Shown here: positions 12,756-64,000 of the stretch, piece after piece | How positions within the stretch are numbered: the first letter of the stretch is position 1 | How the letters are laid out: every line of letters starts with the position of its first letter | Source of the DNA: a bacterium | GTDB taxonomy: Bacteria; Zhuqueibacterota; Zhuqueibacteria; Residuimicrobiales; Residuimicrobiaceae | Direction of reading: 5' to 3' | Assembly (NCBI GenBank): GCA_029554865.1 | Contig: JAKPUX010000252.1 | Location: 1-64,000, forward strand | DNA: 64,000 bases | Notes under the pieces: generated by a model | The model's database searches: none | What the model saw: the letters and a program-made list of their open reading frames with translations, nothing else | What the model was told of the DNA's origin: nothing | Position numbers and translations under genes: made by a program

Positions 12756-15266
12756 ATGATGAAAATGGTTCTGCGATGGGGGATTATTCCGGCGTTTCTC
12801 TTCTCCTTACTGGCCTGCCACGTTCCCGCCCTGGCGCAGACGCCCAGGCTCTGCATCAACGAGTATCTCGCGTCCAACTCAAAACTCAACGCCGACCCCG
12901 ATTTCAATGAGTATGGCGACTGGATCGAGCTCTACAACCCAGGGGACGTCGCCGTCCCGCTCGTCGGCTGGTATCTGACCGATAACCTCTCCCGGCCCGA
13001 CAAGTGGCGGATCACCGCCAACGTCTCCATCCCTGCCAGGGGCTGGCTGGTCATCTGGGCCGATGACCGCAACACCGGCCTGCACGCCAATTACAAGCTC
13101 TCCGCGGACGGCGAGGAGATCGGACTTTACGATTATGCCCTCAAGCCGGTCGATACCATCAGCTTCGGCCCCCAGACCACCAACGTCTCCTGCGGCCGCT
13201 ATCCCGACGGCGCCGGCGAGTGGCGCTATTTCAGCACCCCCACCCCGGGTGCGGCCAACTGGAACCAGCCCTTCGAGGGTGTCGTCTCCGACCCCCTTTT
13301 CTCCATGCCCGGCGGTTTTTACAGCGCCCCCCAGACCATCGTCCTCTCCTGCAGGGATGGCGACGCGTCCATCCATTACACCCTTGACGGCTCCGTGCCC
13401 ACCGAAGGCTCCGCCGCCTATCTCCAGCCCATCGTCATCGACCGCACCACCGTCCTGCGCGCCCGGGCCTTCCGCGCCGGCAGCCTGCCCAGTCGGGTGA
13501 TCACCAATACCTGTTTTATCGGCGAATCCGCCACCCTGCCGGTGGTCTCCCTCTCGACCAATCCGGAGAACCTGTGGGATGACCGGATTGGCATCTATGT
13601 GGTCGGCACCAACGGCGTCACCGGCTACTGCATGAGCACCCCCTGTAACTGGAACCAGGACTGGGAGCGGCCCGCCACCCTGGAGTATTACGATGAGGCG
13701 GGCCAGCAGCAGTTCCGCCTCGATGCCGGCATCAAGATCGGCGGCGGCTGCACCCGCAAGTACCCCCAGAAGCCCCTGGCGGTCTATGCCCGCAGCGTCT
13801 ACGGCAGCAGCAAGATCTATTATCCCCTCTTCGACGACCGCGGCGCCGAGGTCTACAACAATCTCGTCCTCTCCAACGGCGGCCAGGACTGGTACCGCAC
13901 CTTTTTCCGCGACGGCATGATGCAGAACCTCGTCAAGGGCCGTATGGATATCGACTGGGTCGCCTACCGGCCGGCCCTGCTCTTCATCAACGGCGAATAC
14001 TGGGGCATCCACTCCCTGCGCGAAAAGCACAACGAGCACTATCTGGAGGCGACGCACGGCATCGACCCCGACCGGGTCGACATCCTGTCCGACAACGCCT
14101 CCGTGCACGAGGGATCGAACACCCTCTACAAGCAGCTGATCGAGTACGTCGGTTCCCGGGACCTGGCGGTCAGGGAGCATTTTGACTATGTCAGCAGCCA
14201 GATCGACGTCGACGAGTATATCAACTACCTCATCGCCGAGATCTATTTCGCCAACATCGACTGGCCGGCCGGCAACATCAAGTACTGGCGTGCCTGGGGC
14301 GAGGGCAACCGCTGGCGCTGGATCCTCTTCGACACCGACCTGGGTTTCGGGGCCCACTCGGACGGGCAGTATGACGACAATTTCCTCGCTGCGGTCACTT
14401 CGCCGGTTGCTACCAGCTATGCCAATCCCCCCTGGTCAACCCTGCTGATCCGCAAGATGCTCGAGAACGAGGGCTTCCGCGACCGCTTCATACAGCGCTT
14501 CGCCGGCCACATTCAGACCACCTTTGCGCCGGAGAGGGTGGTCCACAAAATCGACAGCCTCCAGGCCCTGATTGCGCCCGAGATTCCGCGCCACAAGCAG
14601 AGATGGCCGGATGCCTTCAACCACGGCGCCACCTGGGAAGGCCAGGTCGAGACCATGCGTACTTTTGCGCGCAAGCGTCCGGAGCACATGATGGCCCACA
14701 TCGCCGCCAGGTTCGCCCTCAGCGGCACCGCCGCGCTCTCGGTGCGCTCCAACGAGCCCGCCTGGGGGCGGGTGGAGATCGAGGGGGTGGCCATGCCCGA
14801 CAGCCTCACCCTGCTCTATTTCAAGGGGATCCCCTTCACCTGCACGGCGCGGCCGGCGCCAGGCTACCGCTTCGCCGGCTGGCACGGCCTCTCCGCGTCG
14901 GGCGAAAAGAGCATCCGGCTCACCCTGACCGATCCCGGCCGGCTGATCGCGATTTTTACCCCGGAAGCGGTGGCAGTCGAGGAGGAGGGGGGCGGAGCGC
15001 CCGCGCATTTTTCCCTGCTGCAAAACTATCCCAATCCCTTCAATCCGGTGACGACGATTTCGTTCGACCTCGCCCGGCCGGAGCTGGTGACGCTTAAAAT
15101 CTACGATCTGCGCGGATCCGAGATGGCTACCCTGCTTCACCAACGGCTGGAGCCGGGTCGCCACAGCGCCCGGTTCGATGCCTCCGCTCTCGCCAACGGG
15201 GTCTATTTTTACCGCCTGGAGGCCGGCTCCTTCCGGCAGGTGCGCAAGATGGTGCTGGCCAAATAA
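12756..15266 (+). CDS. Secreted CotH-kinase protein with lamin-tail and T9SS sorting domains
   Basis: 836 residues after AGGAGGTGA; the second ATG at 12759 is equally usable. Order of parts: signal peptide (to about residue 28, ALAQ), lamin-tail domain (INEYLASNS to about 165), a chitobiase-like Fn3/hexosaminidase C-terminal module (DASIHYTLDGSVPTEG, about 180-245), a CotH domain (about 255-630, with NGEYWGIHSLREKHN and ILFDTDLGFG), a small beta domain, and a complete C-terminal sorting domain beginning LLQNYPNPFNP near residue 755. CotH domains are protein kinases in spore coats; in large secreted FCB proteins their target is unknown. Export would be Sec then type IX. Confidence 0.88.
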   Translation: MMKMVLRWGIIPAFLFSLLACHVPALAQTPRLCINEYLASNSKLNADPDFNEYGDWIELYNPGDVAVPLVGWYLTDNLSRPDKWRITANVSIPARGWLVIWADDRNTGLHANYKLSADGEEIGLYDYALKPVDTISFGPQTTNVSCGRYPDGAGEWRYFSTPTPGAANWNQPFEGVVSDPLFSMPGGFYSAPQTIVLSCRDGDASIHYTLDGSVPTEGSAAYLQPIVIDRTTVLRARAFRAGSLPSRVITNTCFIGESATLPVVSLSTNPENLWDDRIGIYVVGTNGVTGYCMSTPCNWNQDWERPATLEYYDEAGQQQFRLDAGIKIGGGCTRKYPQKPLAVYARSVYGSSKIYYPLFDDRGAEVYNNLVLSNGGQDWYRTFFRDGMMQNLVKGRMDIDWVAYRPALLFINGEYWGIHSLREKHNEHYLEATHGIDPDRVDILSDNASVHEGSNTLYKQLIEYVGSRDLAVREHFDYVSSQIDVDEYINYLIAEIYFANIDWPAGNIKYWRAWGEGNRWRWILFDTDLGFGAHSDGQYDDNFLAAVTSPVATSYANPPWSTLLIRKMLENEGFRDRFIQRFAGHIQTTFAPERVVHKIDSLQALIAPEIPRHKQRWPDAFNHGATWEGQVETMRTFARKRPEHMMAHIAARFALSGTAALSVRSNEPAWGRVEIEGVAMPDSLTLLYFKGIPFTCTARPAPGYRFAGWHGLSASGEKSIRLTLTDPGRLIAIFTPEAVAVEEEGGGAPAHFSLLQNYPNPFNPVTTISFDLARPELVTLKIYDLRGSEMATLLHQRLEPGRHSARFDASALANGVYFYRLEAGSFRQVRKMVLAK

Positions 15267-52137: not shown

Positions 52138-53208
52138 ATGGAATCCAAAAAACTTAAAGCAAGACTGGAACTGGAAGACGGCTCGGTCTATCACGGCTTC
52201 TCCTTCGGCGCCCAGCACACTACAGCCGGCGAGGTGGTCTTCAACACCAGTATGGTCGGTTATCCGGAGACCCTCACTGATCCCTCCTATCACGGCCAGA
52301 TTCTGGTCCTGACCTACCCCCTCATCGGCAATTACGGCGTGCCCGGCAGCGATGTGGTCGACGGCATCGAACGCAATTTCGAATCGGACCGCATCCACGT
52401 GCACGGGTTGATCGTCTCCGAGTACTCTTCCGAATACAGCCACTGGAACGCCCGGCGGAGCCTGGGCGAGTGGCTGACGCAGAACGGCATTCCCGCCCTC
52501 TCCGGGATCGACACCCGCGCCCTGACCAAGCGGCTGCGCGACGAGGGCACCATGCTCGGCCGCATCCTCTTTTTCGCCGAGGAACAGACCTTTTACGATC
52601 CCAACAAGACCAATCTGGTCGCCGAGGTGAGCCGGCGTGAGCCGGTCGAGTACGGCGAGGGCGACAAGAAGGTCATTCTGGTCGACTGCGGCGCCAAGAA
52701 CAACATTCTGCGCGGCCTGCTTCATCTTAACCTGCGCGTGCGCTGCGTGCCCTGGAATTATGATTTCAGTGGCGAGGAGTATGACGGCGTCATGCTCTCC
52801 AATGGCCCGGGCGATCCCAAGATGTGTGTTGAGACTATCCAGATCATCCGCAAGGTGATGGAGCGCAGCCGCCCCATCTTCGGGATTTGCATGGGCAACC
52901 AGCTGCTCGCCCTGGCTGCGGGCGCCGACACCTACAAACTCAAGTTCGGCCACCGCAGCCAGAACCAGCCCTGCGTCGAGGTGGGGACCAAACGCTGTTA
53001 CATTACCGCGCAGAACCACGGCTTCGCCGTCGACGGGCGCACCCTGCCTGCCGGCTGGGAACCCTGGTTCGTCAATGCCAACGACGGCACCAATGAGGGC
53101 ATCCGGCACCGCTCCAGGCCCTTCATGAGTGTCCAATTCCATCCCGAAGCGGCCCCGGGGCCGGTCGATACCATGCTGTTGTTCGAAGACTTTAGCAGGA
53201 TGCTCTAA
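52138..53208 (+). CDS. carA: Carbamoyl-phosphate synthase small subunit
   Basis: 356 residues. N-terminal domain LELEDGSVYHGFSFGA and the glutaminase domain with nucleophile Cys251 (GICMGNQLL), His335 and Glu337 (QFHPEAAPGP). It supplies ammonia to CarB. It overlaps carB by one base. The product feeds argF at 27 kb and pyrimidine synthesis. Confidence 0.95.
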   Translation: MESKKLKARLELEDGSVYHGFSFGAQHTTAGEVVFNTSMVGYPETLTDPSYHGQILVLTYPLIGNYGVPGSDVVDGIERNFESDRIHVHGLIVSEYSSEYSHWNARRSLGEWLTQNGIPALSGIDTRALTKRLRDEGTMLGRILFFAEEQTFYDPNKTNLVAEVSRREPVEYGEGDKKVILVDCGAKNNILRGLLHLNLRVRCVPWNYDFSGEEYDGVMLSNGPGDPKMCVETIQIIRKVMERSRPIFGICMGNQLLALAAGADTYKLKFGHRSQNQPCVEVGTKRCYITAQNHGFAVDGRTLPAGWEPWFVNANDGTNEGIRHRSRPFMSVQFHPEAAPGPVDTMLLFEDFSRML

Positions 53209-56200
53209 TGGCTGAAAAAGTGATCATTCTGGGGAGCTCCGCCCTCAAGATCGGTGAAGCGGGCGAATTTGACTATTCCGGCAGCCAGGCGATCAAGGCC
53301 CTCAAGGAAGAGGGCATCAAGACCATCCTGGTCAATCCCAACATCGCCACCATCCAGACCTCCGAGCATCTCGCCGACGAGGTCTACTTTCTGCCGGTGA
53401 CCCCCTATTTTGTCGAGCAGGTGATCAAGAAGGAAAAGCCGGATGGCATCCTGCTCGGTTTCGGCGGCCAGACCGCCCTCAACTGCGGGGTCGAGCTGGA
53501 GCGGGAGGGAATTCTGCGCCGCTACGGGGTAGCTGTGCTCGGTACCCCGGTTGAGGCGATCATGAACACCGAGGACCGCGATCTCTTCACCGCCAAACTG
53601 CGCCAGATCGACGTCAAGGTGCCGCGCAGCCACGCGGTCACCTCGGTCGAGGAGGCGGAGCGGGTGGCCGGCGAGATCGGCTACCCGGTGATGATCCGCA
53701 TCGCCTACGCCCTCGGCGGCCTCGGCTCGGGCATCTGCCGCAGCGTCGAGGAGGTGCGCGAGCGCGCACACAAGGCCTTCAGCTACACCCGCCAGATCCT
53801 GGTGGAGGAGTATCTGCTCGGCTGGAAGGAGATCGAATTCGAGATCGTCCGCGACCAATACGACAACTGCCTTTCGGTCTGCAACATGGAGAATTTCGAT
53901 CCCATGGGGATCCACACCGGCGAGAGCATCGTCGTTGCCCCGAGCCAGACCCTCACCAGCAGCGAATACCACAAACTGCGCGCGATCGCCATCCGCACCG
54001 TGCGCCATCTCGGCATTGTCGGTGAATGCAACATCCAGTACGCTCTGGATCCCTTTTCCGAGGATTATCGGGTCATCGAGATCAACGCCCGGCTCTCGCG
54101 CAGCTCAGCCCTCGCCTCTAAGGCGACCGGCTATCCCCTTGCCGCGGTGGCGGCCAAGCTGGCCCTCGGCCACAGCCTCATCGATCTGCCCAACTCAGTC
54201 ACCCGCGTCACCAAGGCGAGCTTTGAACCCGCCATCGACTATGTGGTGGTCAAGATCCCGCGCTGGGATCTGAAAAAGTTCCGCCAGGTTTCGAAAAAAA
54301 TTGGCTCCTCGATGAAATCGGTCGGCGAGATCATGGCCATCGGCCGCAAGTTCGAGGAGGCCCTGCAAAAGGGGCTGCGCATGCTCGAGATCGGCTTCGA
54401 CGGGGTGGTGCTCAACCGGCCCTTCGAAATCGGCGATCTGCGCGAGGAGCTGGCCGAACCGACCGACCTGCGCATCTTCGCCATCCCTGAGGCCATGGAG
54501 CAGGGGATGGATATCGACGAGATCCACGCACTCACCCACATCGACCGCTGGTTCCTCCACAAGATCGCCAACATCGTCGCCATGAAAGAACGGCTCGGCG
54601 AGGTGGGCGAACAGCGCTGCCCGCGCGACATCATGCTTGAGGCCAAGCAGCTGGGCTTTTCCGACACCCAGATCGGCCGCGCACTCGGGCAGGGCGAGGA
54701 GGAGATCCGCAAGCTCCGCAAGGCCTATGGCCTGGCCCCATGCGTCAAGCAGATCGACACCCTCGCCGCTGAATACCCGGCCCAGACCAACTATCTCTAT
54801 CTGACCTACAACGGCGAGGAGGACGATGTCTCCTTCAACGCCCGCAACTCGGTGATGGTGCTGGGCAGCGGGGCCTACCGCATCGGCAGCTCCGTCGAAT
54901 TCGACTGGTGCTGTGTCAATTCGGTGATGACCCTCAAGCAGCTCAACTACCAGACCATCATGGTCAACTACAATCCCGAGACCGTCAGCACCGACTATGA
55001 CGTCTGCGACAAGCTCTACTTCGATGAACTCAGCTTCGAGGCGGTCTGCGACATCTACGACAAGGAGAAGCCGCTCGGGATCATTCTTTCCATGGGCGGA
55101 CAGATCCCGAACAACCTTGCCCTGCGCCTTCATAACGTGGGGGTGCGGGTGCTGGGCACCTCGGCCTTGAGCATCGACAGCGCCGAGGACCGCCACAAGT
55201 TCTCCCGCCTGCTCGACCAGCTCCACATCGACCAGCCGGCCTGGGCCGAACTCACCTCCATAGAGCGGGCGATCGCCTTCGCCGCTGAGGTCGGCTACCC
55301 GGTGCTGGTGCGCCCCTCCTACGTCCTGAGCGGGGCGGCGATGAGCGTCGCCTCCAATGATGCTGAACTGGAAAAATTCCTCAACAAGGCGGCCAGGATC
55401 TCCTCCGACCATCCGGTAGTCATTTCCAAATTCATCGAGAACGCCAAGGAGATCGAGATTGACGCCGTCGGCAACGAGGGCGAGCTCCTGGTCTACGCCA
55501 TCAGCGAGCATGTCGAAAACGCCGGGGTCCATTCCGGCGACGCCACCATTGTGCTGCCGCCGCAGCGGACCTTTCTGGAGACCACGCGGCGGGTCAAAAA
55601 GATCGCCAGCCGTATCGCAGCGGCCCTCAAGATCAACGGCCCCTTCAACATCCAATTCGTCGCCAAGGACAACGAGGTCAAGGTGATCGAGTGCAACCTG
55701 CGCGCCTCGCGCAGCTTTCCCTTCGTCTCCAAGATCTTCGACATCAACTTTATCGACCTGGCGACGCGGGTGATTATGGGCCATCATCCTCCGCGCATCG
55801 ACCGCTCGGCCTTCGACCTCGAGTATGTCGGGGTCAAGGCTCCGCAGTTCTCCTACACCCGCCTCAGCGGCGCCGATCCCACCGTAGGGGTGGAGATGGC
55901 CTCCACCGGCGAGGTCGCCTGCCTGGGCGACGATTTCGACGAGGCCTTTCTGCTCTCCCTGCTTTCGGTCGGCTACCGCCTGCCCATCCGCAATGTCCTG
56001 CTCTCGACCGGTCCGATCGAGACCAAGGTGGAGTTTCTCGCCGCCACCCGCAAGCTGCAGGAGATGGGCATCCAGTTCTTCGCCACCGGCGGCACCGCGC
56101 GTTTCATGGCGGAGAACGGCATTCCCGCCCGGCAACTGCACTGGCCGCTCTCGGAGAAGAAACCGGGTGTGCTGGATTACATCAGCGAGCGCAAGATCGA

Positions 56201-56393
56201 TCTGGTCATCAATATCCCCAAGAATTACCAGGAGGAGGAGTTGACCAACGATTATATCATCCGCCGGGCGGCGGTCGATTATGCCATCCCGCTCTTCACC
56301 AACATGCAGCTGGCGCGGCGCTTTGTCGAGGCCCTGAGCCGCAAATCCCTCAAGGAGCTGCAGATCAAGAGCTGGCGGGAGTATCTGCAGTAG
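53208..56393 (+). CDS. carB: Carbamoyl-phosphate synthase large subunit
   Basis: 1061 residues. Two ATP-grasp halves (first with ALGGLGSGI, second with RPSYVLSGAAMSVA), separated by an oligomerisation region and ended by a methylglyoxal-like allosteric domain (LAATRKLQEMGIQFFATGGTA). Complete with no frame break. Confidence 0.96.
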   Translation: MAEKVIILGSSALKIGEAGEFDYSGSQAIKALKEEGIKTILVNPNIATIQTSEHLADEVYFLPVTPYFVEQVIKKEKPDGILLGFGGQTALNCGVELEREGILRRYGVAVLGTPVEAIMNTEDRDLFTAKLRQIDVKVPRSHAVTSVEEAERVAGEIGYPVMIRIAYALGGLGSGICRSVEEVRERAHKAFSYTRQILVEEYLLGWKEIEFEIVRDQYDNCLSVCNMENFDPMGIHTGESIVVAPSQTLTSSEYHKLRAIAIRTVRHLGIVGECNIQYALDPFSEDYRVIEINARLSRSSALASKATGYPLAAVAAKLALGHSLIDLPNSVTRVTKASFEPAIDYVVVKIPRWDLKKFRQVSKKIGSSMKSVGEIMAIGRKFEEALQKGLRMLEIGFDGVVLNRPFEIGDLREELAEPTDLRIFAIPEAMEQGMDIDEIHALTHIDRWFLHKIANIVAMKERLGEVGEQRCPRDIMLEAKQLGFSDTQIGRALGQGEEEIRKLRKAYGLAPCVKQIDTLAAEYPAQTNYLYLTYNGEEDDVSFNARNSVMVLGSGAYRIGSSVEFDWCCVNSVMTLKQLNYQTIMVNYNPETVSTDYDVCDKLYFDELSFEAVCDIYDKEKPLGIILSMGGQIPNNLALRLHNVGVRVLGTSALSIDSAEDRHKFSRLLDQLHIDQPAWAELTSIERAIAFAAEVGYPVLVRPSYVLSGAAMSVASNDAELEKFLNKAARISSDHPVVISKFIENAKEIEIDAVGNEGELLVYAISEHVENAGVHSGDATIVLPPQRTFLETTRRVKKIASRIAAALKINGPFNIQFVAKDNEVKVIECNLRASRSFPFVSKIFDINFIDLATRVIMGHHPPRIDRSAFDLEYVGVKAPQFSYTRLSGADPTVGVEMASTGEVACLGDDFDEAFLLSLLSVGYRLPIRNVLLSTGPIETKVEFLAATRKLQEMGIQFFATGGTARFMAENGIPARQLHWPLSEKKPGVLDYISERKIDLVINIPKNYQEEELTNDYIIRRAAVDYAIPLFTNMQLARRFVEALSRKSLKELQIKSWREYLQ

Positions 56394-56427: not shown

Positions 56428-56456
56428 TTGTGCTTGTGCATAAATTTCGATAAAAT
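56428..56456 (+). promoter_or_regulatory. Sigma-70-like promoter of the CsgG-like gene block
   Basis: TTGTGC, a 17-bp spacer, TAAAAT. The leader is about 22 nt and contains the CGGAG ribosome site. Confidence 0.6.
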
Positions 56457-56484
56457 CCAGAAGATGTCCTAACCGGAGTACGCC

Positions 56485-57186
56485 ATGAATGGGATGAAGT
56501 TTTGGATGGTGATCCTGCTCGCCGGCCTTGCCGTGTGCAGCCTGTGGGCGGCGGATGAACCGCAGGGGGTGCGTACCCTCGCCGTGCTCGATTTCGAGAA
56601 CAACAGCCTCAAGGACAAGGAGGAGATGGCGCCCCTCTGCAAGGGCCTCGCCGACATGTTCATCACCGAGTTGAGCAAGGTCCGCCAGTTTCAGCTGGTC
56701 GAGCGCGCCAATCTGCAAAAGATCCTCTCAGAGATGAGCCTCGGCCAGACCGGGGTGATCGAGGAGTCGGCCGCCCAGGAGGTGGGCAAGATGCTCGGGG
56801 CGCAGAATCTGGTCCTCGGCTCTTTCATGCTCATGTTCGACGGCAAGCTTCGCATCGACGCGCGCCTGGTCGAGGTCGAGAGTGGCAAGACCCTGATGGC
56901 CGAGGAGGCGACCGGATCTCCCGACGATCTCGCCAAGCTGGTCACCCGACTGGTCAACCGCAACATCGAGAGCCTGAATGTCGAGCTGTCGGGGGAGGAG
57001 AAAAAGGCCCTTCGGCAGGCCGACAACCGTTCCTTTGACGCCGCCCTTCTCTTCGCCCGCGGCCTGGATTTCGAGGAAAAAGGCGATCTGGCGAATGCCC
57101 GCAAGTGCTATGTGCTTGCGCTCAAGCACAACCCCAGGTTCCGCCGCGCCCGCATCCGGCTCGAGGCCTTGAAGAACACCAACTGA
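56485..57186 (+). CDS. Exported CsgG-like protein with a C-terminal TPR
   Basis: 233 residues. Signal peptide to about residue 22 (SLWA). Residues 28-155 follow the CsgG/FlgO-like pattern: AVLDFENNSL, GLADMFITELSK, FQLVERANLQKIL, then GAQNLVLGSFMLMFDGKLRIDARLVEVESGK. The C-terminus holds one TPR-like unit (AALLFARGLDFEEKGDLANA). It lacks the lipid anchor and the transmembrane hairpins of pore-forming CsgG. By family this is an outer-envelope assembly protein. It heads a block of four exported proteins. Role not known. Confidence 0.75.
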   Translation: MNGMKFWMVILLAGLAVCSLWAADEPQGVRTLAVLDFENNSLKDKEEMAPLCKGLADMFITELSKVRQFQLVERANLQKILSEMSLGQTGVIEESAAQEVGKMLGAQNLVLGSFMLMFDGKLRIDARLVEVESGKTLMAEEATGSPDDLAKLVTRLVNRNIESLNVELSGEEKKALRQADNRSFDAALLFARGLDFEEKGDLANARKCYVLALKHNPRFRRARIRLEALKNTN

Positions 57187-57222
57187 TCCGCCAGCTTTTT
57201 CTGAACGCAGTGAGAGGCAACC

Positions 57223-58611
57223 ATGGTCAAACATCCTGTTCGTTACGGCGGTGCGCTTTTTGTTCTGTTACTCGTCCTCTTCCAGAGCTGCGCCCCGGCC
57301 CAGCAGAACCTCGGTCATGAGCTGATTGAGCGCGGGGAGTATGCCCGGGCGGTGCGTCCGCTCAAGATGGCGATCGCCCAGGACTATACGGACGTCCAGT
57401 CCATCCGCGACATGGGCATCGCCATGTACCACGCCGGCAAGCTCAAGCTCGCTCGCGGTTTTCTCCGTCTTGCCCTCAGCCGTGCCCCCAAGGATATGCC
57501 GACCCTCTATTACCTCGGCATGGTCTATGAACTCGAGGGGCAAATTGATCAGGCCCTCCAGCACTACAGCCGCTATACCCAGCTCAATCCCGCACGCAAG
57601 ATGCGCCAGACTGTCGAAGGCCGCATGCAGGTTCTCGTCCGCCAGCAGATGGCCGCCCAGATCAAGGCCCTGCTCGAGCAGGAGGAGGCGCTCGAGGCCT
57701 CCCCGGCGCCTGAAAATTCAATCGCCGTCCTCTATTTCACCGATCTTTCCGGCAATCCCGATTTCGTCCCCCTGCGCAAGGGGCTGGCGGAGATGCTGAT
57801 CACCGATCTCGCCCAGGTCAAGAGTTTGCAGGTAGTGGAGCGTGCGCGCATGCAGATGCTGCTCGATGAGATGGGGCTGGGCATGACCGGCCTGGTCAAG
57901 GAGGAGACCGCCCCGCGCATGGGCCGGCTTCTCAAGGCCGGCCGAATCGTCCAGGGCACTTTTTCCGGCGCGGATGCCAAAATGCTGAAAATCGATGCAC
58001 TGCTGGCGACGGTGGGGGTGGAGACTCCCGCCGCGGCGGAAAAGATCTCGGGCTCCCTGGAGGAGTTTTACCAGCTCCAGAAGGATCTGGTCTTCAATCT
58101 CATCGACGTCATGGGGCTGCGCCTTTCCCGCGGCGAGCGGGAGGCGATCCAGCGCATCCCAACCAAAAATTTGACCGCCTTCATGGCCTGGTGCCGCGGA
58201 CTCGATGAAGAGGACCGCGGCAACTGGCAGGGCGCCCAGGAGCAGTTCCGGGCCGCGGTCAGCGCCGATCCCGCTTTTCAGTCCGCCATCGACGCCATCG
58301 GGCGCAGCGCGGCCTTCGCCTCTTTCTCGCCCAGGCCGGAGACGGCTCCGCCGTCGCTGCTGGCCGAAGCGGGCGGGAGGGATGACCGGCGGGAGAGCAC
58401 GCGCCTGCCCTCCGGCGGCGCTGCAGCGGTCCCGTCAGCCAGCGCGGGTGATTTGATCACCATCGACCTGCTCAGCCGCGCAGCAGCCCAGATCACCCCC
58501 GGTTTTGTCCCCGGGGTGGAGTCGCGCAAGCCCACCACTGAATCCTCCACCATCGGCATCGGCACCGGCATCCCGCTGGAGGTGCGCATCCAGTTGCCCG
58601 TCAAACCGTAA
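57223..58611 (+). CDS. Putative lipoprotein with TPR and CsgG-like domains
   Basis: 462 residues. A signal peptide ends at Cys23 (LFQSC), a plausible lipobox. Residues 30-130 are TPR units (ERGEYARAVRPLKMAIAQ, AMYHAGKLKLARGFLRLALS, YELEGQIDQALQHYSRYTQL). Residues 165-300 repeat the CsgG-like pattern of the gene before (AVLYFTDLSGN, GLAEMLITDLAQ, LQVVERARMQMLL, AGRIVQGTF). One more TPR follows, then a disordered tail rich in Ser, Pro and Gly ending in EVRIQLPVKP. The matching cores suggest duplication of one ancestor followed by domain rearrangement. 36 bp after its relative. Confidence 0.75.
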   Translation: MVKHPVRYGGALFVLLLVLFQSCAPAQQNLGHELIERGEYARAVRPLKMAIAQDYTDVQSIRDMGIAMYHAGKLKLARGFLRLALSRAPKDMPTLYYLGMVYELEGQIDQALQHYSRYTQLNPARKMRQTVEGRMQVLVRQQMAAQIKALLEQEEALEASPAPENSIAVLYFTDLSGNPDFVPLRKGLAEMLITDLAQVKSLQVVERARMQMLLDEMGLGMTGLVKEETAPRMGRLLKAGRIVQGTFSGADAKMLKIDALLATVGVETPAAAEKISGSLEEFYQLQKDLVFNLIDVMGLRLSRGEREAIQRIPTKNLTAFMAWCRGLDEEDRGNWQGAQEQFRAAVSADPAFQSAIDAIGRSAAFASFSPRPETAPPSLLAEAGGRDDRRESTRLPSGGAAAVPSASAGDLITIDLLSRAAAQITPGFVPGVESRKPTTESSTIGIGTGIPLEVRIQLPVKP

Positions 58612-58644
58612 CCCGCAGCCATGATCCGCAGCAAGGAAAGCCCT

Positions 58645-59769
58645 ATGATCGAGCAACGCAAAGCACCACTTCGCCTCCTCACCGCCCTGATCCTCGCGGC
58701 CTGTCCGGCCCTCTTCGCCCAGCCTGCCATGCTTCAGCGCGCCCGCGAGGGGACCGCCTCGGCTTCCGCTGTCCTGAATCTCTGGCAGGTTGAGGATGAG
58801 CAGGTCCGCCAGATCGCCATTCCACTCACCTTTCTCTATCCGGTCAACGAGCAGCTTCAGCTTACCATCGGGGCCGGGCCTGCCTTCAGCACCTTCGAGG
58901 GCTCGGGCGAGGCCGCCCTGAACGGATTCTCCGACACCCGCTTCGGCGGCAGCTATCTCTTCAAAAATGAGCGGCTGCTTGCCACCTTCGGGATCAACCT
59001 CCCCAGCGGCAAGCACGCCCTCAACGGCGAGGAGCTGAGCGTGGCCAATATCCTCGCCCTGCACGCCTTTGATTTCACCGTCCCCATCCTCGGCCAGGGT
59101 CTGGATGTCAGCGCCGGACTGGTTTCCGCCTTTCCGCTCGGCGGCATGGTCGCCGGCCTGGGGGCGGGATTTCTCATGCGCGGGGCTTTCGAGCCCTTTG
59201 AAAACGGCAGTGTCAAGTATAATCCGGGCGAAGAGATCACCCTCTCGGCGGCGGTTGACCTTCCCCTGCAGCGCCGTAAAAAACTGATGTTCGATGCCAA
59301 TTACACTATCTACACCGCGGACAAGGCGGGGGGGAGCAAACTCTTCCAGGCGGGAAACCGCATCACCCTGCAGGCGATGGCCTGGTTCCCCGGCGAGAGC
59401 GCCGGAGTGCTGCTTATGGCCCGCGACCGCATCCGCGCCGCCAATAAAATCGTCAGCAACGACGATCTCATCCCGGAGCGTCAGAACAGCAACGGCAATG
59501 AACTGGAGCTGCTCGCCATGGTCTCGCTGCCTCGCAGCGCCTATACCACCCTGCGCGGGGTGATCGAGGGCAAAATTTACAGCAACAACGCCTACGACAT
59601 CGGCGGAGCCACCATCGGTGGCATCGGCGCCGGCCTGAGCAAGATTTTCACCCCCCATCTCTCCCTCGAGCTGGATGGCCGTTTCTACTTCGGTTCAATG
59701 GAGACCGGCATCGATAAGGTCGGCCTCACCGGCCTGCGCGCGACAGGCGGCCTCAAGTACCGTCTTTAA
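58645..59769 (+). CDS. Predicted outer-membrane beta-barrel protein
   Basis: 374 residues from ATG 58645, which follows AAGGAAAG; ATG 58621 is possible. Signal peptide to about residue 26 (ALFAQ). The rest alternates polar and hydrophobic residues in short strands joined by Gly/Asn turns (LLATFGINLPSGKHALNG, LTIGAGPAF, HLSLELDGRFYFGS) and ends in GLKYRL, a typical barrel finish with an aromatic near the end. Family not recognised. It lies 33 bp after the CsgG-like lipoprotein, so it may be the membrane part of the same system. Confidence 0.72.
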   Translation: MIEQRKAPLRLLTALILAACPALFAQPAMLQRAREGTASASAVLNLWQVEDEQVRQIAIPLTFLYPVNEQLQLTIGAGPAFSTFEGSGEAALNGFSDTRFGGSYLFKNERLLATFGINLPSGKHALNGEELSVANILALHAFDFTVPILGQGLDVSAGLVSAFPLGGMVAGLGAGFLMRGAFEPFENGSVKYNPGEEITLSAAVDLPLQRRKKLMFDANYTIYTADKAGGSKLFQAGNRITLQAMAWFPGESAGVLLMARDRIRAANKIVSNDDLIPERQNSNGNELELLAMVSLPRSAYTTLRGVIEGKIYSNNAYDIGGATIGGIGAGLSKIFTPHLSLELDGRFYFGSMETGIDKVGLTGLRATGGLKYRL

Positions 59770-59789
59770 TCAGGTTCAGGAGTCCCTCT

Positions 59790-60998
59790 ATGTTCTGTAA
59801 AATTGCAGCAATGAAAAGCCCCGCGGCCCTGATCCTCCTCGCCCTCGCTCTGGCCGGATGCAGCGAGCAGCCCGGCCAGCCTGGACGGGATACCGCTATT
59901 CGTCTCAACCTCCGCTTTCTCCCCCCCGGCGAGCGCTCCGCCTTTCCCGGGACGGAGGAGGAGACGGCGAGCCTGGGCAAATCGGCGCGGCTGGTCGAAG
60001 ACCAGGTGCTGCTGCTCCACTGCGACGACGAAAGCCTCGCCGTCGCGACCGATGCCAGCCTCTACCGCAACAATTTTCAGCTCTTCAGCATCGAGTATGC
60101 CAACTCGGAAAACGCCGCGCTTAAAAAAGCCCTGGTTTTCAACGGCGACAATTCGTACGGCCTCAGCACAGCCTATGAAAGCAAGGCGGGGATCCTCAAC
60201 GGCACGCACGGTTTTTCCTTCTCCTGCCGCTTGCAGATGACCGGTGCCGGCATGATAGGGGAGAAGCGCATCTTCGACCGGCACGACCCCCTGGGCGGAT
60301 ACACCATCGGGGTCATCACCTCGCCCCTCGCCTACACCCCCAGGCTCTTTCTGAAAATCAAGCAGGAGGGCGTCGAGACCATCCTCACCAGCAAGTCGGT
60401 CCTGACCCCGGGCACATGGTATAAAATCAGCGCCGGCTATGACCAGAACCGGCTGGCGATCTCCATCAACGACAAGGCCGACACCACCCTCGCCCACCGC
60501 GGCCTGGTCTCGCCCTCGGCCCGTCCCACGGTCCTCGGCGCCGGCTGGAACGGCGACCTCATCGGTTACCCCTTCAACGGCCTGCTGGATGAAATCTCGC
60601 TGACCACTACGGTGGACTATTACGACTTTGAACAGATCCGCGTGGCTGTCGTCGATCTCTCCGACTATGACAACATCAGCGACTTTTACAGGACCAAGGG
60701 GATGGAGATGGCCGATTCACTCTACCACCTGGAGGAGTCGGGCACCGGGGCGCCCTCCTGGGAGGCCTATGGGCAGGTCTTCCGGGATATTGGCCTCGAG
60801 GTGGTTTACAACCAGAATCTGGGAATTGACAAGGGCTTCGCCGCCGGGACCATCCGCGGTGTTGAAGGAGGGAACCTGATCTTCGTCGGCGCCATTCAGG
60901 ACGGCGCAGTGATCTACAGCGGCGGCGGTTTCGTCTGGACCACCGGCGATGCCATGGCCGATGTGGTGATTGAACTCGAAAGTTATGAAGGGAAATGA
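59790..60998 (+). CDS. Lipoprotein with a LamG-like domain
   Basis: 402 residues. A perfect lipobox LAGC puts the lipidated Cys at residue 24. Residues 70-275 resemble a concanavalin/LamG sandwich (ALVFNGDNSYGLS, HGFSFSCRLQM, GTWYKISAGYDQNRLAISIND, GYPFNGLLDEISL), a fold that often binds sugars. Residues 285-402 have no recognised family. ATG 59790 follows CAGGAG. It is the last of the block; two terminators follow. Confidence 0.75.
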   Translation: MFCKIAAMKSPAALILLALALAGCSEQPGQPGRDTAIRLNLRFLPPGERSAFPGTEEETASLGKSARLVEDQVLLLHCDDESLAVATDASLYRNNFQLFSIEYANSENAALKKALVFNGDNSYGLSTAYESKAGILNGTHGFSFSCRLQMTGAGMIGEKRIFDRHDPLGGYTIGVITSPLAYTPRLFLKIKQEGVETILTSKSVLTPGTWYKISAGYDQNRLAISINDKADTTLAHRGLVSPSARPTVLGAGWNGDLIGYPFNGLLDEISLTTTVDYYDFEQIRVAVVDLSDYDNISDFYRTKGMEMADSLYHLEESGTGAPSWEAYGQVFRDIGLEVVYNQNLGIDKGFAAGTIRGVEGGNLIFVGAIQDGAVIYSGGGFVWTTGDAMADVVIELESYEGK

Positions 60999-61012
60999 AT
61001 CCTGAATGAGGG

Positions 61013-61042
61013 GGCGGCGGCCGGATCCGGCGGCCGCCTTTT
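61013..61042 (+). terminator. GC-rich stem-loop with short T run
   Basis: Outer stem GGCGGC/GCCGCC around a CCGGATCCGG palindrome, then four T. Probably the first of two terminators of the exported-protein block. Confidence 0.55.
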
Positions 61043-61060
61043 GAGGTGGAGTATGGCTCG

Positions 61061-61085
61061 GGCCGGCGGTGACGCCGGCCTTTTT
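61061..61085 (+). terminator. Rho-independent terminator of the exported-protein block
   Basis: Perfect 8-bp stem GGCCGGCG/CGCCGGCC with a four-base loop and five T. The minus-strand gene ends 15 bp further on. Confidence 0.85.
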
Positions 61086-61099
61086 GATTTCTGATTGTT

Positions 61100-62062
61100 T
61101 CAGGCGCGGGTGAGCAGCCGCTGCCGGACCAGTTCTGCGACCTCCATCGCCGCACTGCCGCGCAGTAGCATGCCGACCTGCCCTGCCGCCTCGCTTTTTT
61201 TGATGTTCTCATCCTCTCCGATTTCACCCCAGGACGAGAGAGTGATTCCCATCGCCTGCAGGAGGAGTTCCTGCATGGCCTGGATGCGCCGCCGCTCCAT
61301 GCCCGCCCCCGCGCGGTTGATAACCAGCCTCGGCTTGTAGCCATCCAGCCCCTCCTGGATGACTGTACAGAGGTGGGGGTGCGCCTCACCATGGCGGGCG
61401 AGAAAGGCAGGCAGGGTTCTGATCTCCCCCGCCCGGGTGATATCCCCGCATCGGCTCAGACGCCCGAAAAGATCCGGCCAATGGCGTGAGCGGTGCTGGA
61501 TACGGCGGAAAAAGCCGGTGCGGATGAACTGATAGGATTCAAGGAGAGAGGAGTTGGGCAGACGGGCGACGACGATGGGGAGGTCCGCCGCAAGAAAAAG
61601 GTCGAGATGGGGATAGCTGGGTCCCTGGCCGCAGTCGATCACGATATACTCTGCGCTCAGCCTGTGCAGATGCAGAAGGATCTTCTGCTTGGCGGCCAGG
61701 GAGAGGCGGGTATGGCTTTGCACCGACGGCGAGCCGGTGATGAGGTAGAGGTTCTTGTTGTCGACGGGACGCGGCAGGATGTTGATATCGGCGTCGCGCC
61801 GCTGGAGAAAATGGTGCAGGAACTGATCGCTGACCGGAAGGCGGGTGCGACCGTAGAGCCCGGCAGCGGCGAGATCGCTGTCGAGCAGGATGGTCCTGTG
61901 GCCCTTGCGGGAGAGGGTCAGGGCAATGAGCCAGCAGAGGGCGGTTTTGCCGCAGCCCCGGCCGCCCGAGCCGACGGAGATGATGCAGGCGGCCGGGGCT
62001 GTGCCGGTATCGGGCTCGGCGAGGAGCTGGTCGAGGTCCAGTGCAGCGAGATCGGCAAACAT
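61100..62062 (-). CDS. MinD/ParA-type P-loop ATPase (FlhG-like)
   Basis: 320 residues. A short N-terminal segment leads to a P-loop written G-S-G-G-R-G-C-G-K-T, a deviant Walker A with Arg where the signature Lys of MinD/ParA (KGG.GKT) is expected. Further landmarks are ILLDSDLAAAGLYG, the Asp of YIVIDCGQGPSYP, and LVINRAGAG. Members place flagella, pili, chromosomes or division proteins; FlhG is the nearest by layout, but no FlhF, flagellar or pilus gene is near. AAAGGA precedes the ATG. A sigma-54 promoter lies 35 bp upstream. Confidence 0.78.
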   Translation of the reverse strand: MFADLAALDLDQLLAEPDTGTAPAACIISVGSGGRGCGKTALCWLIALTLSRKGHRTILLDSDLAAAGLYGRTRLPVSDQFLHHFLQRRDADINILPRPVDNKNLYLITGSPSVQSHTRLSLAAKQKILLHLHRLSAEYIVIDCGQGPSYPHLDLFLAADLPIVVARLPNSSLLESYQFIRTGFFRRIQHRSRHWPDLFGRLSRCGDITRAGEIRTLPAFLARHGEAHPHLCTVIQEGLDGYKPRLVINRAGAGMERRRIQAMQELLLQAMGITLSSWGEIGEDENIKKSEAAGQVGMLLRGSAAMEVAELVRQRLLTRA

Positions 62063-63220: not shown

Positions 63221-63277
63221 GCATAAATGAGCATTCACCACCCGGCTTCATCTCAACGATATCGCAAGAGGGAATGT

Positions 63278-64000
63278 ATGCGAAACCATATGCAGCCCCT
63301 GCTTCTCCTCCTCCTGCTCGCCGGCCTCTTCATCTCGTGCAAGGATAAAAAGGCCATCGAGAGCGGGATCGAGTTCGTCAAGGTAAACGGCGGCCAATTC
63401 CAGATGGGAGACACCTTCGGCGACGGCGACAGCGATGAGCAGCCCGTCACCGAGACCAGGGTCGGGGATTTTTACCTCGGCAAGACCGAGGTGACCGTGG
63501 CGCAGTTCCGCCGTTTTGTCGATGCGACCGGTTATGTGACCGAAGCGGAAAAGGAGGGCAGCGGTTGGGCCTGGACCGGGGAAAAGATCGACCGCATTCC
63601 CGGCGCGGACTGGCGCAATTCCGGCTTCGAGCAGGGCGACTTCCATCCGGTGATCAATGTCAGCTGGAATGATGCCATGGCCTTTTGTGACTGGGCGGGC
63701 TGCCGGCTGCCCTCAGAAAAAGAGTGGGAATATGCCTGCCGCAGCCGCGGCCAGAAGATCAAATACAGCTGGGGGAATGATTTTCCGCGCGGCGCCAAAG
63801 GGGGCAACATCGCCGACGAGAGCGGGGCCGCCGGCTATCCCCTGCGGAGCTGGTTCAAGGGCTACAGCGACGGCTTTGTCTTCACTGCTCCTGTCGGCCG
63901 CTTCGAGGCCAACGGCCTGGGGCTTGTGGACATGACCGGAAATGTGCTCGAGTGGTGCTCCGATCTCTATGAGGAATACCTCGGCTATCTGCCTCCGAAC
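63278..64000 (+). CDS. SUMF1/FGE-type sulfatase-modifying-domain lipoprotein, 3' truncated
   Basis: 241 codons are visible and the frame runs off the window. A signal peptide ends at Cys21 (FISC), a plausible lipobox. From residue 33 the formylglycine-generating-enzyme fold is clear: FVKVNGGQFQMGD, YLGKTEVTVAQFRRFVDATGY, HPVINVSWNDAMAFCDWAG, RLPSEKEWEYACR, and MTGNVLEWCSD at the end. The copper-binding Cys pair of true FGE lies beyond the visible part, so activity cannot be judged. Many bacterial members are binding or regulatory proteins instead. ATG 63278 follows AAGAGGG. Confidence 0.88.
   Translation, partial: MRNHMQPLLLLLLLAGLFISCKDKKAIESGIEFVKVNGGQFQMGDTFGDGDSDEQPVTETRVGDFYLGKTEVTVAQFRRFVDATGYVTEAEKEGSGWAWTGEKIDRIPGADWRNSGFEQGDFHPVINVSWNDAMAFCDWAGCRLPSEKEWEYACRSRGQKIKYSWGNDFPRGAKGGNIADESGAAGYPLRSWFKGYSDGFVFTAPVGRFEANGLGLVDMTGNVLEWCSDLYEEYLGYLPPN

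Follow-up and report, generated by a model that had tools for sequence, protein, structure and literature searches.

What do four consecutive genes for exported proteins, two of them with CsgG-like cores, do together in a bacterium that has not been cultured? The genes (A to D, Table 1) lie towards the end of the 64,000 nucleotides of DNA that were analysed (the window), part of a metagenome-assembled genome (4.3 Mb, 408 contigs, 94% complete) most closely related, among named genomes, to those of candidate division KSB1 (KLAP87, UBA2214-type). We find that the block is real and conserved in this uncultured KSB1-lineage bacterium, and that its core unit is the pair B and C, around which accessories and cargo, A and D, vary. 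The reading we lean towards, on the combined analysis, is that A–D are a surface-protein display (export/anchoring) module in which C would be the barrel of the cargo and B its periplasmic adaptor.

Table 1 Coordinates of the four-gene block and its borders within the window.
Feature	Position	Strand	Product	Description	Basis
Gene A	56485-57186	+	233 aa	Signal peptide, CsgG/LpoB-type core ~24-170, one C-terminal TPR	Pfam, alignment
Gene B	57223-58611	+	462 aa lipoprotein	TPRs 28-157, CsgG core 166-297, TPR 303-366, disordered tail 390-453	
Gene C	58645-59769 (alternative ATG 58621)	+	374 aa	Outer-membrane beta-barrel, ~16 predicted strands, FadL/CymA-like monomeric type	
Gene D	59790-60998	+	402 aa lipoprotein	LamG domain inserted in second domain	Pfam, alignment, profile comparison
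Terminator hairpin 1	61005-61050	+		-26.9 kcal/mol, z -3.44	
Terminator hairpin 2, with T run	61060-61085	+		z -3.65	
carA-carB	52138-56393	+		Conserved upstream neighbours, outside module	

The layout given in a preliminary description of the locus, four genes on the plus strand separated by 36, 33 and 20 bp, agrees with our coordinates, as do the export signals on all four products and the two terminators, each of which folds better than 200/200 shuffles. The single promoter placed at 56428-56456 was not recovered, a sigma-70 consensus scan giving no plus-strand site there, although this consensus may not be that of the host. Within the block no RNA families were found. Upstream, the carA-carB order is kept in two relatives with the block (G004 and G012) and carB in a third (G005), whilst the block is present without carA-carB in G009 and G010. 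The genes 3' of D differ between relatives, including a DUF2809 membrane protein and a transporter of the Na-sulphate symporter family (L045:4544-4933, L042:1220-1618, L043:10185-11588), which places the 3' border of the block at D. Just past the terminators the window holds a ParA/MinD-like P-loop protein (61100-62062, minus strand) with a weak, sub-cut-off Pfam match to CbiA, and at 63227-64000 a lipoprotein with a formylglycine-generating-enzyme-type (FGE-sulfatase) domain, truncated by the window end.

Rather than being scattered in relatives, the genes were found to travel together in a neighbourhood survey, with A-B-C-D or a preserved part of it recurring in other genera of the order, across three of its families. 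G004, G009, G010 and G012 have the complete block, as does G005, whose C escaped the simple gene caller but was recovered by a barrel search; the flanks differ in some. In G001, G006 and G011 only part of it is preserved, either because a contig ends there or because A is missing. A count over 63 genomes of the class, with thresholds of E 1e-30 for B and 1e-3 for C, gave 38 with both genes, 24 with neither and one, 73% complete, with B only; C is present in 51 of 82 genomes of the phylum. Counting as a pair any B and C on the same strand within 12 kb, we obtained 55 B-C pairs among the fetched neighbourhoods, and many of the C copies lacking a B lie at the end of a contig or follow a giant gene that overruns the fetched stretch. 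Beyond KSB1, the pair is present in records from Ignavibacteria, Zixibacteria and Gemmatimonadota, accompanied there by other third genes whose products are exported. The B-C pair of a record titled Actinomycetota (L058, JAACEJ010000750.1) very closely resembles the one in a Calditrichota/KSB1 record (L055), and the title is probably wrong; the L055 and L058 loci also enter the B-C tree, as G011 and G012.

The histories of B and C run in parallel, their tree distances correlating with r = 0.80 (54 of 55 pairs). Ten genomes hold two or three B-C pairs, and paralogues were re-paired only inside these multi-copy genomes, so that the species tree is kept; the re-pairings gave a mean r of 0.557 and a maximum of 0.790, with 0/5,000 reaching 0.80, a result that speaks for co-inheritance and not for binding, as blocks copied whole give matching trees even without contact. 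The cargo layout clusters strongly on both trees, with 2-3 changes on the B and C trees versus 16.4 with shuffled labels.

The third gene beside B-C changes between loci, yet it encodes an exported protein of surface type. Three layouts recur: that of the window, A-B-C-lipoprotein; B-giant-C, in many cases with A after it; and a B-C pair with a larger protein behind it. The giants of the second layout span 1,200-2,970 aa, contain BNR-propeller, ASH or LamG domains and end in a type IX secretion system (T9SS)-type tail, a C-terminal domain that is absent from D and from the short cargo lipoproteins. D is, as had been proposed, a LamG-type lipoprotein (Laminin_G_3 at 5e-7 by Pfam, with a lipobox), its LamG sitting inside another domain which, by alignment, relatives of ~190 aa carry without LamG; at some B-C loci the third gene is a short lipoprotein with this same non-LamG domain. 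By profile comparison, D and the Ignavibacteria cargo lipoproteins have homologous cargo domains (hhalign 98%, or 97.6% once signal peptides are removed), homology to the Zixibacteria cargo is possible (93.5%, dropping to 70% without signal peptides), and in the Gemmatimonadota cargo lipoproteins the domain is not detectable at profile level. D is the presumed surface cargo, in which no known surface-export signal was found. As a candidate C-specific docking module we considered the region preceding the T9SS tail of the giants, however, its profile also matches many giants whose genomes have no C, and it has no match in the window's genome, so that no C-docking signal was found. Elsewhere in the window, a T9SS-type sorting tail ends an 836 aa protein (12756-15266).

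C had been taken for an outer-membrane barrel, and AlphaFold2 models it confidently as a beta-barrel (pLDDT 88, pTM 0.80, ~16 strands). Among solved structures, Foldseek places the model closest to FadL-type, CymA and OmpG monomeric barrels; FadL gives the best E-value (3.8e-10) but a TM of only ~0.45, and CymA a TM of 0.51-0.52, which narrows the predicted fold to a monomeric barrel and no further. Similarity to any named family is weak: no Pfam family matches C of the window above cut-off, Phenol_MetA_deg is reached by 2/29 of its relatives (best 3.6e-5) and a PDB sequence search with C returned nothing. Two shuttle families and Slam were considered and set aside. None of 29 C homologues has a Pfam match to PorP_SprF or PorV, the window's genome has no PorP_SprF, and hhalign of C to PorV-like proteins gave 3.5% with a shallow profile; no SlipAM/DUF560 match appeared up to E 1 for C or up to 0.1 for the 29 homologues, and a TPR_Slam match on B was below cut-off.

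For A and B, the claim of a shared CsgG-like core in differing domain orders was borne out, A being CsgG-TPR and B TPR-CsgG-TPR, with both above the Pfam CsgG cut-off of 20.8 bits (A 67.6 bits, 1.3e-18; B 35.1 bits). Homologues of A match CsgG in 10/10 and LpoB in 9/10 cases at E<=0.01. In seven orthologues the signal peptide of B ends with an invariant Cys, and the disordered tail of B closes with a conserved GFVPGxESRxPTTE, of which GF(V/I)PGxESR is conserved in the KSB1 orthologues and largely so in paralogues; Foldseek with the AlphaFold2 model (pLDDT 82) returned TPR matches only. Global hhalign of the A and B profiles against one single CsgG sequence was too weak for use. CsgG cores also occur in other settings. 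In Ignavibacteria (L060:11440-13506, L068:12493-14517) a large CsgG-core protein follows the B-C-cargo genes, occupying the position of A; for L060, Pfam detects a caspase (Peptidase_C14) domain fused to it. In Bacteroidota (L092-L107, L113, L119, L122), outside the B-C module, there is a tandem CsgG-core pair (~435 and 694 aa) which the A and B profiles match equally, often followed by another large gene.

Could the CsgG cores themselves be the export channel? CsgG membrane hairpins, two per subunit, build the curli pore. In the A homologues the first hairpin segment, from the GS turn to the RVVN strand, measures 15 residues versus 37 in E. coli K-12 CsgG, the second is also missing by inspection, and the hairpin region of the B model has just three short strands. 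With these hairpins missing, neither A nor B makes a curli-type pore, and any membrane crossing would therefore be through C. Neither the genes of the block nor its conserved neighbours include curli subunits, CsgE or CsgF; for the subunit this absence had been claimed before. Curli-type secretion through a pore of A and B, for which the above-cut-off Pfam matches would speak, is thus given next to no credence here, and such a pore is rejected. The same cores admit a housekeeping interpretation, an envelope-maintenance unit with A and B as LpoB-like regulators of cell-wall synthesis, C as a porin and D as a stress lipoprotein. It draws on the LpoB similarity of the A homologues, two distant ones of which exceed the family cut-off (26.0 and 28.7 bits), but A of the window misses it (16.5 versus 22.3 bits) and was not accepted as an LpoB, no cell-wall synthase lies nearby, and a patchy joint presence with giant surface cargo is ill-suited to housekeeping; we consider this interpretation improbable.

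Two further alternatives give C another role. In PelBC, a lipoprotein ring surrounds TPRs beneath a barrel (PMC12141448), and this solved arrangement of PelC ring, TPR and barrel, together with the sugar-binding type of the LamG domain, would fit a polymer exporter with C as the passage for a polysaccharide, A and B as the lipoprotein ring with TPRs and D as the binder of the polymer outside. However, no glycosyltransferase or polymer-modifying gene lies in the block or is conserved beside it, and what varies between loci is cargo-like proteins, so that a polymer exporter has little probability. Alternatively, C may be a divergent T9SS shuttle, the cargo leaving via SprA and C collecting and anchoring it as SprF does for SprB, with B replacing PorE. 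The giants with T9SS-type tails immediately upstream of C, like the cargo genes of sprF, speak for this, and the window's genome encodes SprA and 80 T9SS-type tails; SprA is also found in 62/63 genomes of the class and in 15/16 other genomes with B-C, but being near-universal in the class its presence is uninformative on whether B-C depends on it, and we dropped it as a link. Against a T9SS shuttle stand the lack of a match of C to PorP_SprF or PorV at family or profile level and the cargoes, D and the short lipoproteins, that have no T9SS tail. We regard it as unlikely, though less so than the polymer exporter.

In several phyla a TPR-CsgG lipoprotein and its own barrel are found again, with surface proteins beside them that change from locus to locus, and the display module is therefore probably a surface export or anchoring machine. 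Of the earlier proposal of an envelope assembly or secretion machine, the kind of function is supported, and the genes move together, but not the CsgG core as its secretion part, in the absence of hairpins, nor all four genes as one unit. The course of events that follows is inferred, from the contacts among B, C and D and the formation of a ring to the location at the surface and the direction of transport. B and D would reach the outer membrane as lipoproteins and C would fold into it as a barrel. B would lie on the periplasmic side, where its TPRs may hold the cargo or the barrel loops, its CsgG core and A probably forming a lipoprotein ring beneath the barrel, with A as a further ring or coupling subunit and the conserved flexible tail of B docking to C. 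C would then act as a cargo-specific exit or anchor that places D outside, where the LamG domain could bind a ligand. At other loci the same B-C pair would serve other cargo, including the giants with T9SS tails.

A bolder version, which we hold to be rather unlikely, would make the module an outer-membrane protein export system in its own right, found widely within the Fibrobacteres-Chlorobi-Bacteroidetes lineages and around them. Diverse cargo would then be moved or flipped to the surface not by SprA or Slam but by a dedicated barrel together with a CsgG-core lipoprotein ring. The module is conserved and apparently undescribed: the earlier remark that no named system matches it stands, as no tested family fits and no paper on this gene set was found in the literature searched. 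If the display reading is true, a recurrent, multi-copy cargo-barrel-adaptor module with interchangeable cargo would explain the surface placement of large adhesins and lipoproteins in several uncultured phyla, and the CsgG fold would gain a non-pore role. The module also allows one to ask whether barrels are specific for neighbouring cargo beyond the known T9SS and Slam families.

Among known systems, the CsgG curli channel has the core domain family in common with A and B but differs in its transmembrane hairpins and its curli genes. In Slam, which serves surface lipoproteins, TPR and barrel are parts of a single protein. Here the two are separate genes, with no DUF560/SlipAM match and an additional CsgG core; the likeness to Slam, or type 11 secretion (DUF560), lies in TPR and barrel beside a surface lipoprotein or soluble cargo (PMC8406197). 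PelB-PelC likewise has a barrel, TPRs and a ring-forming periplasmic lipoprotein (PMC12141448), in contrast to the block its barrel and TPR are fused and it works with polysaccharide genes. In the T9SS, a PorE-PorP-cargo complex forms in P. gingivalis, and in F. johnsoniae the cognate porP/sprF-like barrel gene lies immediately downstream of the cargo gene (PMC12618676, PMC9143113). B differs from PorE in having TPRs and a CsgG core with neither beta-propeller nor OmpA-type peptidoglycan-binding domain, C falls outside the PorP/SprF and PorV families by Pfam and profile, and many B-C cargoes, unlike T9SS cargo, are lipoproteins without the T9SS tail. Membership of a PorP- or Slam-type family thus finds no support on sequence, and our claim is that B-C would work like these systems, not that it is one of them. 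The block resembles PorE-PorP-PG1035 and SprF-SprB, in which a TPR lipoprotein and an outer-membrane barrel are co-encoded with a variable, often giant, surface cargo (PMC9143113, PMC12618676): the barrel gene C adjoins its cargo gene as in the PorP/SprF shuttles, it lies directly downstream of the giant cargo gene as sprF does of sprB, and several paralogous sets occur in one genome.
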